From positions 1-20,043 of IMG/VR virus record IMGVR_UViG_3300021378_001121: a stretch of DNA of 20,043 bases, one strand, 5' to 3'. Positions 1,910-14,795 of the stretch are shown here, in pieces (position 1 is the first letter of the stretch; every line of letters starts with the position of its first letter). The DNA comes from a virus. The notes beneath the pieces were generated by a model. That model made no database searches. It worked only from the letters and a program-made list of their open reading frames with translations, and was not told the DNA's origin. Both the position numbers and the translations under genes were made by a program.

Positions 1910-1938
1910 TTGACACGCAGTGCTATATACTGTATAAT
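1910..1938 (+). promoter_or_regulatory. Consensus sigma70 promoter for the cytosine methyltransferase
   Basis: TTGACA at 1910-1915, a 17-base spacer and TATAAT at 1933-1938 form a perfect consensus. The predicted +1 is near 1945, giving a leader of about 19 bases with AAAGG at 1953-1957 before ATG 1964. Confidence 0.88.
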
Positions 1939-1963: not shown

Positions 1964-3112
1964 ATGAATTATCAACCATACAATCTGCAAGATGTTTACG
2001 ATTCGGCATCACAGAAGAAATTCCAAGTCATCAGCACGTTCGCTGGTGGTGGTGGTTCTTCCACAGGTTACCGTCTCGCAGGTGCTGATATCCTCGCGAT
2101 TAATGAGTTTGTCGAAGAGGCACGTGTAACTTACAAAGAAAACTACCCCGACACACCTATCCTACCCGACGACATCAAACAACTATCTGGTAAAGATTTC
2201 CTAGACCTCGTTGGTTTGGAGAAGGGTGAGTTGGATATTCTCGACGGGTCGCCTCCATGTTCCGCGTTCTCTGTCGCGGGTAAACTGTCTCATTCATCTG
2301 AAGGCAAACACTCTGACGGGTGGGGACAGACTAAGTCGTACAGTGACGGTAAAATTGTAGAGAATATTGAAGACCTGTTCTTTGAGTTCTTACGTGTCGC
2401 TAATGATATTCAACCCAAGGTCATCATTGCAGAGAATGTTAAGGGTCTGACCATCGGTGAGGCTAAAGAGTACTACAACCGTATACTTAATGAGTTCGAG
2501 AATATCGGGTATGAAGTCGTATCTGAAGTGCTGGATTCTCGATACTACGGTGTCTCCCAAACACGTTCTCGTGTTATCTTTATTGCGGTACGCCAAGACG
2601 TTGCGGATGAAGTGGGTCTGAACTTCTTGACTATGAACCACTTGTTCCCCACACCGTCCCGCACAGCAATCCCTCTCAAGGATGCTCTGATTGACCTAGA
2701 GTATGATGATGAAGAAGTTAAGTATCTCACTGAGAAGTTTGAACGAACTGCATACTGGAAACAAACTGGTTCTAAGATGGAGACGTTCCCTAAGAAAGTG
2801 CTGTCTGGTATGGACTACCATCCCAAAGGCCACCACTTCAATCTCAAACGAGTTTCTCTTGAAGTCCCTGCACCGACATTGACCGCGATGGGTAACGGTG
2901 ACACAACTGCGGGTGCATTCCACTGGAGTGAACCAAGAAAGTTGACACTAGGCGAATTAAAGCGTATAATGTCACTTCCTGATGATTTTAAACTCACGGG
3001 TAAGTGGAACCAAAAGGCAGAACGTATTGGACGTATGGTACCACCATTAATGATGAAACAGATTGCTGAGTCAGTCTATGATAATGTATTGAAGGTATAT
3101 AATGAAAGATAG
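1964..3112 (+). CDS. DNA C5-cytosine methyltransferase-family enzyme with Arg in place of motif X Asn (possible carboxymethyltransferase)
   Basis: A 382-residue enzyme of the Dcm/M.HhaI family, which transfers a one-carbon group from SAM to C5 of cytosine in DNA. The motifs are in the usual order: motif I F-A-G-G-G-G-S-S-T-G-Y at 26-36; motif IV G-S-P-P-C with the nucleophile Cys99; motif VI E-N-V at 157-159; motif VIII Q-T-R-S-R at 199-203; a short target-recognition region; motif IX P-A-P-T-L-T near 302-307; and L-T-x-x-E-x-x-R-I-M-x-L-P-x-x-F near 328-342. Motif X reads I-G-R-M-V-P-P (355-361), where the family norm is G-N-(S/A)-V-P-P, so the conserved Asn is Arg357. In the engineered enzyme M.MpeI the equivalent Asn-to-Lys or -Arg change allows carboxy-SAM to be used. 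The CmoA-like gene downstream overlaps it by 11 bases. I infer that 5-carboxymethylcytosine is a possible product; plain 5-methylcytosine remains the alternative. No restriction partner is visible. Confidence 0.93.
   Translation: MNYQPYNLQDVYDSASQKKFQVISTFAGGGGSSTGYRLAGADILAINEFVEEARVTYKENYPDTPILPDDIKQLSGKDFLDLVGLEKGELDILDGSPPCSAFSVAGKLSHSSEGKHSDGWGQTKSYSDGKIVENIEDLFFEFLRVANDIQPKVIIAENVKGLTIGEAKEYYNRILNEFENIGYEVVSEVLDSRYYGVSQTRSRVIFIAVRQDVADEVGLNFLTMNHLFPTPSRTAIPLKDALIDLEYDDEEVKYLTEKFERTAYWKQTGSKMETFPKKVLSGMDYHPKGHHFNLKRVSLEVPAPTLTAMGNGDTTAGAFHWSEPRKLTLGELKRIMSLPDDFKLTGKWNQKAERIGRMVPPLMMKQIAESVYDNVLKVYNER
2942..2970 (+). promoter_or_regulatory. Consensus sigma70 promoter inside the methyltransferase gene, for the CmoA-like gene
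   Basis: TTGACA at 2942-2947, exactly 17 bases, then TATAAT at 2965-2970, all within coding sequence. Predicted +1 is near 2977, about 125 bases before the CmoA-like start. A perfect match in both boxes at ideal spacing is unlikely by chance and fits the repeated pattern in this window. Confidence 0.75.
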
Positions 3113-3821
3113 AGAAAGAACTACTCATAGAGATTTTACCTTCGGTCACCGTGAGGAAGGATTCGACAATCATATCGACGCCTCGATTCGTCACTACTCC
3201 ACACTACATGATGATGTAGTAAAACTATCTCATTACTTCGTAGAGAATGATACTAAGGTAGTTGATATCGGATGTAGCACAGGTAAGACCGTTCAAGCGA
3301 TGATTGAACAGAATCACTCTACTGCACCCAATGCACATTACTGTGGTGTTGAGTATGCTGAAGTGTTTCAGGAAGAAATGGCCTCCCGTCAAAAAACTCT
3401 TAATGAAAATGGACATCATGTCTGTTTTCAAAACAAAAACATAATCCATCATTCCTTCGAGAACTGTTCGTTAGTAACCTCTATCTTTACGTTGCAGTTC
3501 ATGCAGCCTTTATGGAGAAAGAAAGTGTTGCAGAATATCTATGACGGTCTCAATGAAGGTGGTGCGTTTATATTTGCGGAGAAGACTTACGCAGAAAATG
3601 CTCGTATACAGGATATGTTGACATCTACGTTCTATGAGTATAAAGCACAACACTTTACTTACGAAGATATTATGGAGAAAGAGAAGACTCTCCGAACTAT
3701 GTTGAAACCAATGACTTGGAATGACCTTATGGGTCTACTTTGCAGTGTTGGTTTTGATTCAACAAAGATTCAACCGTTCTGGCAAAATCATTTATTTGTT
3801 GGTGCGATTGCAATAAAGTAG
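3102..3821 (+). CDS. CmoA-like SAM-dependent enzyme (carboxy-SAM synthase homologue)
   Basis: A 239-residue class I SAM-binding protein. E. coli CmoA (about 247 residues) makes carboxy-S-adenosylmethionine from SAM and prephenate. Compared with CmoA from memory, the matches include Tyr32 (CmoA Tyr39), D-I-G-C-S-T-G at 55-61 (CmoA D-L-G-C-S-L-G), F-T-L-Q-F-x-x-P at 129-136 (identical pattern), Y-D-G-L-N-x-G-G near 147-154 and A-E-K near 159-161. Two ligand residues differ: CmoA Asn132 aligns with Ile128, and Arg199, which salt-bridges the carboxylate, aligns with Glu194. An Arg (198) lies one helical turn later. So the fold and lineage look like CmoA, but carboxy-SAM formation is not certain. 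ATG 3102 has AAGG at 3092-3095, and the gene overlaps the methyltransferase by 11 bases. No CmoB homologue is visible, which argues against a tRNA role. Confidence 0.82.
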   Translation: MKDRERTTHRDFTFGHREEGFDNHIDASIRHYSTLHDDVVKLSHYFVENDTKVVDIGCSTGKTVQAMIEQNHSTAPNAHYCGVEYAEVFQEEMASRQKTLNENGHHVCFQNKNIIHHSFENCSLVTSIFTLQFMQPLWRKKVLQNIYDGLNEGGAFIFAEKTYAENARIQDMLTSTFYEYKAQHFTYEDIMEKEKTLRTMLKPMTWNDLMGLLCSVGFDSTKIQPFWQNHLFVGAIAIK

Positions 3822-3850: not shown

Positions 3851-3934
3851 ATACATGTGGTGACACAAAATGCGAGAGCAAACCGTGTACCAATTAAGAG
3901 GACAATTTTGTCTAAACAATTAAAGGAGACTATT

Positions 3935-4954
3935 ATGTCTAACAATGAATTTTATGAAAATGGCCCCAAATCAACACTGAAAGAACTAGAACGACTTTAC
4001 CCCAAATCTTACTGGGAAGAAAAATACCCACACCTAACATATGTTGGGATGACCATGCGTCCCGTACAAGACTTTTTTGATGATAACTTAGGTGTTCGTC
4101 ATCAAGGTACTCCAGACGCAGAGCCCCTCTCTGTTTCCCTTGACCGCCGCGGATGGGACGTTAACTACGCACCTCCGATGTATACCATTAATGGTAGGTC
4201 GCCATTAGATGGACGTACACGTGCGTCTGAATCTTCAAAACTTGGTATCAAAGAGATACCGTGCGCAGACTTCGTAGAAAACCCAACTGACACTCCATTA
4301 TCTGATAGGATTGGTGTTGGTATAATCTCTAACAATCATGACTATGCAGGAACTCTTGGTTGGAAAGACTTTGTTGCCGCGGGTGTTCATGTTGTATCTG
4401 CGGGTGAAGTTGACCTTTCCCGCGAAGATATTGAAGACTTCTTTGTGAGAAAATGTAACATGTACGGTTTCTACAAGGAAGGCGGCCACTGGATTACGCG
4501 TATCGTTGATGAGGTTATTGCGACCTGTTCAGAAGGGTCGGGTATCGTGCGCGTCAAGACTCGTGAAGGTTGGATAGAATGGTTAGAAAATAACGGCCAT
4601 GACCTTACGGGTGTTAAGGTTTTGACTGCGGGTGGTTCTAACTCGGCAGAACGTTTCTTTTCACGCGAAGTCCTATCCACAGTCAAAGGAGAACCCGTAA
4701 AGGTAATTCTTTTCTCTGGTAGCGGTCGTGAGTCTAAGGCAACTAAAGACATAAACGACTTTTGTTCTGATGTGAAAAAAAGTTGTCGTCTCATGGACAG
4801 AAATGTTCAGAGTTTCCTTGGAGGTTTCGTAGACCTAAAGGATAAGATTTCATACGATGAACGCTTCGTTGTTGTCGGTATAGTTCCACAGATAACATCT
4901 AGATATTCAGATGAGTATGACCTTGGTAAACTCATTAACATCTCTGAATTTTAA
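3935..4954 (+). CDS. ParB/sulfiredoxin-fold-like protein of unknown role
   Basis: A 339-residue protein. ATG 3935 is chosen because AAGGAG at 3923-3928 lies 6 bases upstream; the open frame extends upstream to GTG 3857, but that codon sits at the predicted transcription start. Residues 82-113 look like the core of the ParB/Srx fold: a strand leading to L-D-G-R-T-R at 91-96, a helix, then L-G-I-K-E-I-P-C at 103-110, matching the family's 'D-G-R-x-R...G-x-x-x-I-P-V'. The rest (about 120-339) has no motif I recognise; it includes a W-I-E-W segment near 215 and alternating hydrophobic strands. ParB-like domains bind nucleotides, and some belong to phage base-modification gene sets. It stands after a methyltransferase and a CmoA homologue and is sealed by its own terminator, so a role in modification is plausible but unproven. 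Confidence 0.6.
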
Positions 4955-7513: not shown

Positions 7514-8323
7514 ATGAAACTTGATTTGACATGCAAGGGTGTTAGGAAGGATATTGCAATTGACTTTATCCAGAGACATCACTATTCACCTGTTCTTCCT
7601 AGACTCACCAAACACTACTTGGGATTTTATCTTGAGGGAGAATTACGCGGGGTGTTGACTCTTGGTTGGGGCACTCAGCCTAAAGGTACTATCAATAAGA
7701 TGTTCGATGGACTAGAGTCTCAACACTATTTTGAGATTGGTAAGATGTGCATGGACGATGACATGCCCAAGAACTCAGAGTCTCAGATGATGTCCCTCAC
7801 CGTGAAATGGATGAAAGAGAACACTGACTGTCTGTTTCTGTATACTATGGCAGACGGTATCATGGGCAAGTGTGGATATGTTTATCAGGCCTCTAACTTC
7901 TACTTTGGTGAGAAGTATCTGACCGATGTCTACCTGATGGAGAACGGTGAGAAACTACATCCTAGGTCAACCAAAGAACTCTGCAAAGAAAATGCCAAGC
8001 AATTGGGTAAAGAGAAGGTGTTCTGGTTAACCTCTGACTTCATGGTGCAGAAAGGCATATCGAGAATCAAGGGATATATGTTTCGGTACATCTATCCTCT
8101 TAATAAGAAGGCAAAGAAACTCCTAAAGAAGTCCCCTATGGATTGGAGACAGAACGAGTATCCCAAGGACGATTCTCTAGAATGGTTTGATGCAACCGTA
8201 GCTCCTAAAAAGAAAATGACTGAACAACCTAAATTTGTGTTGGAGTTAGACAATATAAAATATAATAGCAAGAACGTTAACACCACAGCATCGAAGAATT
8301 CCCTAGAAGAGTTCTTCGGTTGA
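7514..8323 (+). CDS. Mom-like DNA adenine-modification protein (GNAT fold) with clamp-binding-like tail
   Basis: A 269-residue protein. The first 140 residues resemble phage Mu Mom and its relatives, GNAT-fold proteins that convert adenine in DNA to an N6-carbamoylmethyl-type base. Visible features are H-H-Y-S-P near 22-26, a strand with G-V-L-T-L-G at 46-51, E-I-G-K-M at 74-78 leading to M-P-K-N-S-E-S at 84-90, and A-D-G-x-x-G-x-x-G-Y-V-Y-Q-A-S-N-F-Y at 113-130. The last matches the 'D-x-x-x-G-x-x-Y-Q-A-x-N' segment of Mom. The C-terminal part after about 200 is Lys-rich and looks flexible, ending in S-L-E-E-F-F-G, nearly the same tail as the DNA polymerase just upstream. That suggests recruitment to the sliding clamp and modification at the replication fork. 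There is no ribosome binding site; the mRNA is predicted to be leaderless. The family call is good; the exact chemistry is inferred. Confidence 0.75.
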   Translation: MKLDLTCKGVRKDIAIDFIQRHHYSPVLPRLTKHYLGFYLEGELRGVLTLGWGTQPKGTINKMFDGLESQHYFEIGKMCMDDDMPKNSESQMMSLTVKWMKENTDCLFLYTMADGIMGKCGYVYQASNFYFGEKYLTDVYLMENGEKLHPRSTKELCKENAKQLGKEKVFWLTSDFMVQKGISRIKGYMFRYIYPLNKKAKKLLKKSPMDWRQNEYPKDDSLEWFDATVAPKKKMTEQPKFVLELDNIKYNSKNVNTTASKNSLEEFFG

Positions 8324-14114: not shown

Positions 14115-14795
14115 ATGAGTGAGGTGACTATTCGAAATAAGGAACTGTTAAGTATTCTTAATAGCTTTTCTGATGAGATGCTCTCTAAACCCTCATATGA
14201 TGATGAGAAGTATTGGACGTATCACGAGTACGAAGATATTCATAAGGGGGAGTACTATACTTCCCGTGAGTACCTCGACGACTGTCTGTCCAGATACCCT
14301 GTGTTAGTGGGCCCACCAGATAGATACTTTGCACAACCCATATCCAAGATGGTACGAGAAGATAAGGAAATGTGGGGTGGATTTATGCAGAAGGTCAAGT
14401 ATGACTTTGCATCGGAACTTGGTGCTCATACTTCTGCATTGCTTTCTTATTACCCGCCCGGTGGGTTTGTTGGTTGGCACACTAATTATGATGCGAATGC
14501 GTACCAAGTCTTATTCACGTGGTCTGAGACCGGAGACGGATACTTCGAGTACTATAATAAGAAGACTGACAAAATAACCAAAATACAAGACGTGCCGGGC
14601 TGGCAATGTCGACACTATTATTTTGGTGCGGGACACGAAGAGGATTTACACTGTTGGCACGCCGCCTATGCGGGATGTCAACGCATTACACTAGCATACA
14701 AGTTTGTAAATAATGGTAGTATAGATAACCCCGAAGACGCGCAAGCGAGAGCAATGCGTGATATGTTAATTGATGAAATTGAGAGTGAAGAATGA
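14115..14795 (+). CDS. 2-oxoglutarate/Fe(II)-dependent oxygenase family protein
   Basis: A 226-residue double-stranded beta-helix protein. The core runs from about 100 to 200: Y-Y-P-P-G-G-F-V-G-W-H-T-N at 112-124, F-T-W-S-E-T-G-D-G-Y-F-E-Y-Y near 134-147, P-G-W-Q-C-R near 161-166, and C-W-H-A-A at 180-184 followed by C-Q-R-I-T-L-A-Y near 188-195. His122 and His182 are the likely iron ligands and Arg190 binds 2-oxoglutarate. The usual H-x-D is not present in that spacing; Asp126 is four residues after His122, so the third ligand is uncertain. Proteins with this P-G-G-F-x-G-W-H-T-N pattern are frequent in marine T4-like phages, and their substrate is generally unknown. It ends in an ATGA overlap with the next gene. 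Confidence 0.82.
   Translation: MSEVTIRNKELLSILNSFSDEMLSKPSYDDEKYWTYHEYEDIHKGEYYTSREYLDDCLSRYPVLVGPPDRYFAQPISKMVREDKEMWGGFMQKVKYDFASELGAHTSALLSYYPPGGFVGWHTNYDANAYQVLFTWSETGDGYFEYYNKKTDKITKIQDVPGWQCRHYYFGAGHEEDLHCWHAAYAGCQRITLAYKFVNNGSIDNPEDAQARAMRDMLIDEIESEE

Follow-up and report, generated by a model that had tools for sequence, protein, structure and literature searches.

A probable 5-carboxymethylcytosine gene pair, CmoX–CmoA, in a variable slot of a marine T4-like phage

What would a phage do with a C5-cytosine methyltransferase in which an arginine stands in place of the conserved asparagine of motif X, encoded next to a homologue of CmoA? This question is raised by a 20,043-nucleotide stretch of viral DNA (IMG/VR record IMGVR_UViG_3300021378_001121; hereafter, the window). 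A sequence-only reading had described the methyltransferase with its substituted arginine and an 11-base overlap with the CmoA-like gene, and had proposed that the pair makes 5-carboxymethylcytosine (5cxmC) in phage DNA. Both descriptive points stood up to scrutiny: the methyltransferase gene is a complete open reading frame (1964–3112), in which PF00145 covers residues 20–371 (E = 1.7e-54, Pfam; a full-length C5-methyltransferase) and motif X reads R-I-G-R-M-V-P-P, with Arg357 (IGRMVPP) at the family Asn position, while positions 3102–3112 are common to both reading frames and the homology of the second product to CmoA is borne out by 4gek and phrog_4752.

Features of the window discussed in the text
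Feature	Position	Strand	Remarks
Putative sigma-70-like promoter, TTGACA-17-TATAAT	1910..1938	+	consensus match 12/12
CmoX, inferred DNA cytosine-C5 carboxymethyltransferase	1964..3112	+	PF00145; 382 aa
Intragenic promoter-like site within CmoX, TTGACA-17-TATAAT	2942..2970	+	consensus match 12/12
CmoA, inferred Cx-SAM synthase	3102..3821	+	239 aa; PDB 4gek, phrog_4752
Accessory slot gene, no recognised family	3857..4954	+	likely ATG start 3935
Mom-family DNA modification gene	7514–8323		PF25680, E = 1e-55 (Pfam)

Whether natural examples of such a system had been published was left open by the sequence-only reading, and the answer is yes. Our literature search on this system returned a sole matching paper, that of Yang et al. 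(Nat Commun, December 2025, PMC12783734), which describes the 5cxmC system of Synechococcus phage S-B43. There, CmoA converts SAM and prephenate into carboxy-SAM (Cx-SAM); the wild-type methyltransferase homologue, SpCmoX, accepts only Cx-SAM and yields 5-carboxymethylcytosine in a GC motif, a modification that blocks HhaI; and its Arg350 touches the Cx-SAM carboxylate, with the R350N mutant being inactive (PMC12783734). In addition, CmoY, an asparagine-synthetase-like ligase, adds glycine to 5cxmC, and the glycine amide is the sole form found in S-B43 DNA (PMC12783734). The kind of system is thus already published, and the pair in the window is a new member of it, not a new system. Because the 5,615 CmoX candidates listed in that paper were drawn in part from IMG/VR, the source of our record, the window sequence may already be in its network.

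The window CmoX aligns with the crystallised SpCmoX of S-B43 (PDB 8yf3) over 97% of the protein at 65% identity (E = 8e-154), with R350 of SpCmoX falling on Arg357. All six of the listed Cx-SAM-contact or catalytic residues are kept (F26, E48, F49, D70, C99 and R357), the first four corresponding to the SpCmoX contacts F25, E47, F48 and D69. Residues 95–99 read GSPPC, in which S96-P97-P98-C99 constitutes the SPPC motif and Cys99 the nucleophile, and the active-site Glu157 and Arg201/203 are retained as well. An NGDTT region near the target-recognition part is an extra stretch absent from SpCmoX, so the GC specificity of the window enzyme may differ. Judged by homology, the fold, the catalytic and cofactor residues and the gene pairing are those of a CmoX–CmoA system.

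The partner protein has E. coli CmoA as its best PDB match (4gek, E = 2e-18) and is 52–54% identical to the CmoA proteins of phages S-B43 (52%, assayed) and S-CRM01 (54%). Asn132 and Arg199, which we take to be ligand sites of E. coli CmoA, the latter binding the carboxylate, are not conserved in the window CmoA, and SpCmoA is equally changed. In E. coli numbering, the window protein has Glu at 199 and a conserved Arg at 203, one helix turn on, and the S-B43 CmoA, which is proven active, shows the same exchange. Arg at 203 also occurs in the CmoAs of Streptomyces, Staphylococcus and faecal phages, with other residues at 199, and those of Erwinia and Alcaligenes phages retain the E. coli arrangement. 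The most economical reading of these alignments is that the carboxylate-binding Arg of CmoA has probably shifted by one helix turn.

The reaction demonstrated for the S-B43 homologues (PMC12783734) lends support to the proposal that the window pair makes 5-carboxymethylcytosine in phage DNA, which we consider very probable on sequence grounds. CmoA would combine SAM and prephenate into carboxy-SAM; CmoX would flip the target cytosine out, Cys99 attacking C6, and Arg357 would bind the carboxylate of carboxy-SAM while the carboxymethyl group is moved to C5. The resulting 5cxmC would protect phage DNA against restriction and may serve as a handle for an amide ligase. Activity, GC target and final base are predictions for the window pair, as is its role against restriction. 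The two uses of the base suggested by the sequence-only reading have precedents in S-B43 (the HhaI block and the ligation of glycine by CmoY; PMC12783734), the second lacking its CmoY within the 20 kb of the window. It could also be argued that the enzyme is an ordinary 5mC methyltransferase that tolerates Arg in motif X, with CmoA serving a host-type tRNA modification (cmo5U): its fold is that of an ordinary C5-methyltransferase, and the PHROGs family that matches the window CmoA is named 'tRNA methyltransferase' (phrog_4752, E = 1e-59). We regard this as highly improbable, given that SpCmoX, 65% identical and with the same Arg, takes Cx-SAM only (PMC12783734), that no CmoB homologue is found among the annotated genes, and that CmoX and CmoA overlap and remain paired across related loci.

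This pairing, and with it the linkage of the Arg variant to CmoA-like genes that the sequence-only reading had anticipated across phages, was followed in 80 viral loci, which were retrieved via CmoX itself and are close relatives, not an independent sample. CmoA lies beside CmoX in 73 of them, a recurrence that speaks against coincidence, and motif X Arg is present in all complete CmoX copies; of the seven loci without CmoA, two are truncated and the other five are short contigs belonging to one group. In L066–L068, L070 and L071, all of them short contigs, CmoX has the Arg motif and CmoA is missing; the phages concerned may draw on carboxy-SAM of the host or have their CmoA gene in another part of the genome. 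Because the 80 loci are close relatives, distant methyltransferases were also checked. Streptomyces phage TurkishDelight and an Erwinia jumbo phage possess both motif X Arg and CmoA; Moraxella phage Mcat8 has motif X Arg and a weaker CmoA-like neighbour with neither candidate Arg; and the C5-methyltransferases of phages without a CmoA match carry Leu (Melnitz) or Met (a Flavobacterium phage) at the motif X position. The anticipated linkage holds in the 73 loci, in TurkishDelight and in the Erwinia phage; the simple rule is broken by Staphylococcus phages, where the only C5-methyltransferase adjoins CmoA yet has Gly-Gly in motif X. These Staphylococcus enzymes fall outside the published definition (SPPC + Arg) and are possibly a second, convergent class of carboxymethyltransferases.

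Several arrangements encountered among these phages merit a description of their own. In the Staphylococcus loci L228:5983–8501 (MW589261) and L226:5947–7646 (NC_029119), motif X reads VVGGVINQ and motif IV GSPCQS, and Staphylococcus phage vB-SscS-F1 encodes CmoY, too, beside the Gly-Gly methyltransferase and CmoA. A viral contig (L230:2608–6011) carries in a row CmoA, CmoY, an Arg-type methyltransferase (AGRTVFIP) and a Gly-Gly-type methyltransferase. The CmoX-like methyltransferase of the Erwinia jumbo phage (L224:17956–20085, MZ443786; motif X LGRICVP) carries an intein-like insert (~350 aa) located precisely at its catalytic Cys. In the Melnitz phages (L003:4010–6194, MZ577098), the Leu-motif C5-methyltransferase gene overlaps a TET/JBP dioxygenase gene (PF12851), and a RimK-like ATP-grasp gene lies upstream of the polymerase.

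The two genes of the window may also be served by separate promoters. The sigma-70-like sequence upstream of CmoX ends 25 bases ahead of its start, and similar putative promoters precede CmoX in several relatives. The second such sequence, inside CmoX, lies 131 bases upstream of the CmoA start. Among 17 distinct relatives with at least 85% amino acid identity, the codons of the intragenic site (AAG TTG ACA, then GAA TTA AAG CGT ATA) are invariant at silent positions, two spacer codons within it vary freely, and the site is the most silent-conserved segment of CmoX (mean 0.90 vs 0.66 gene-wide). The likeliest reason for this silent-site conservation is that the intragenic site acts as a putative separate promoter for CmoA and the downstream genes.

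The identity of the final base is a separate matter. CmoY (PF00733) is absent from the 20 kb window, although this absence counts for little, the record being a fragment. The 5cxmC may be made into an amide by a ligase encoded beyond the window, as it is by CmoY in S-B43; this explanation is compatible with the proposed action of CmoX and CmoA, concerns the final base only, and has in our estimation a little under an even chance. CmoY is within reach in 38 of the 80 related loci, close sister phages carry it in the same slot, and S-B43 DNA contains the glycine amide only (PMC12783734), all of which, along with the fragmentary record, speak for an outside ligase. However, in sister phages with CmoY this gene usually lies ~3 kb or less from CmoX, and that slot is fully read in the window and contains none. 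PF00733 is likewise absent from two contigs with CmoX–CmoA, L035 (70 kb) and L040 (51 kb; its slot holds nothing but the pair), and from the complete circular genome of the cultured phage S-CRM01, which makes the latter a firm ligase-free case within the sensitivity of this single family model.

The CmoX–CmoA core module can accordingly occur without an amide ligase, and unadorned 5cxmC may be the end product in some phages. We tentatively consider it possible, if rather doubtful, that in both the window lineage and S-CRM01 the free acid is itself the final base, no amide ligase being involved, and that in the window phage it occurs beside a Mom-type adenine modification. Because S-B43 shows the glycine-capped base only, the ligase-free phages, one of them cultured, are the place to ask about a bare, negatively charged final 5cxmC.

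The Mom-family gene itself occupies a second variable position, between the DNA polymerase and primase genes. It might take over the tailoring of 5cxmC from CmoY, since the window and L035/L038 have Mom without CmoY and the sister phages with CmoY lack a local Mom. Yet most Mom relatives reside in loci without CmoX or CmoA, L110 holds CmoY, CmoX, CmoA and Mom, and CmoY and Mom also co-occur in the contig behind L074 (204 kb). We rejected this substitution as very unlikely; as its relatives mostly occur without CmoX and it coexists with CmoY, Mom is a modification gene in its own right, more plausibly responsible for an adenine modification separate from 5cxmC.

The CmoX–CmoA pair lies in a variable slot between two constant neighbours, the gene at 1095–1904 and the DNA polymerase gene. 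When 71 places with this flanking gene were compared (three of them this phage or near-identical contigs), the slot was empty in 38, contained CmoX in 12 and a long gene with further genes in about 11, held a PF20691/phrog_842 gene in two and other genes in three, and ran into the contig edge in five. The long gene is DruA-like where tested (PF14236), and PF20691/phrog_842 is a TET-associated/HMC glucosyltransferase family. Given such varying contents, CmoX–CmoA is one exchangeable cassette among several for modification or defence, and its slot is a site where phages swap such genes. Individual slots (L158, L164, L168, L171, L195 and L200) contain either the HMC-glucosyltransferase-family gene or DruA-like genes accompanied by ParB-like or HNH genes. 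Among larger sister contigs whose slot is empty or holds DruA, several lack a C5-methyltransferase altogether, and one has such a gene elsewhere.

Three further genes attracted attention. The accessory gene that follows CmoA in the slot has no Pfam or PHROG match, and its close relatives are confined to near-identical contigs and L041. A ParBc neighbour has been reported for many CmoX loci, but a by-eye likeness of this product to the ParB fold found no support, with no profile match, an hhalign value of 0.2% to ParB-like slot proteins and an AlphaFold pLDDT of 33. The gene at 1095–1904, by eye a glycosyltransferase, was discarded as such (no family match; AlphaFold pLDDT 47) and, being a constant flanking gene, is not part of the CmoX system. 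The gene at 14115 is 2OG-oxygenase-like, with no family match in the window; in the corresponding UvsX-helicase region, S-CRM01 and Melnitz have a gene annotated as a 2OG-Fe(II) oxygenase.

The window would extend a modification reported as recently as December 2025 to a different T4-like backbone of a marine phage. With the 5cxmC/5-glycylcarboxymethylcytosine system of S-B43 it shares homologous CmoX (65%) and CmoA (52%), the same Arg, the same cofactor contacts and the adjacency of the genes. The gene order differs, being CmoA–CmoY–CmoX in S-B43 and CmoX–CmoA with the 11-base overlap here, and the window, without CmoY in its 20 kb, has one additional gene in the slot (3857–4954). S-CRM01 (NC_015569) resembles it in its CmoX (63%) and CmoA (54%), the overlap of the genes and the absence of PF00733 from the complete genome, but has CmoA upstream of CmoX and partly different neighbouring genes. 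In engineered M.MpeI N374K, according to its citation in PMC12783734, a basic residue that replaces the Asn of motif X permits the use of Cx-SAM; unlike the window CmoX, this is a laboratory mutant with Lys instead of Arg, a CG target and a SAM-using parent. Finally, the E. coli CmoA–CmoB pathway of tRNA cmo5U formation likewise employs a Cx-SAM synthase of the CmoA type, but its acceptor is tRNA hydroxyuridine, via CmoB, whereas that of the window system would be DNA cytosine.
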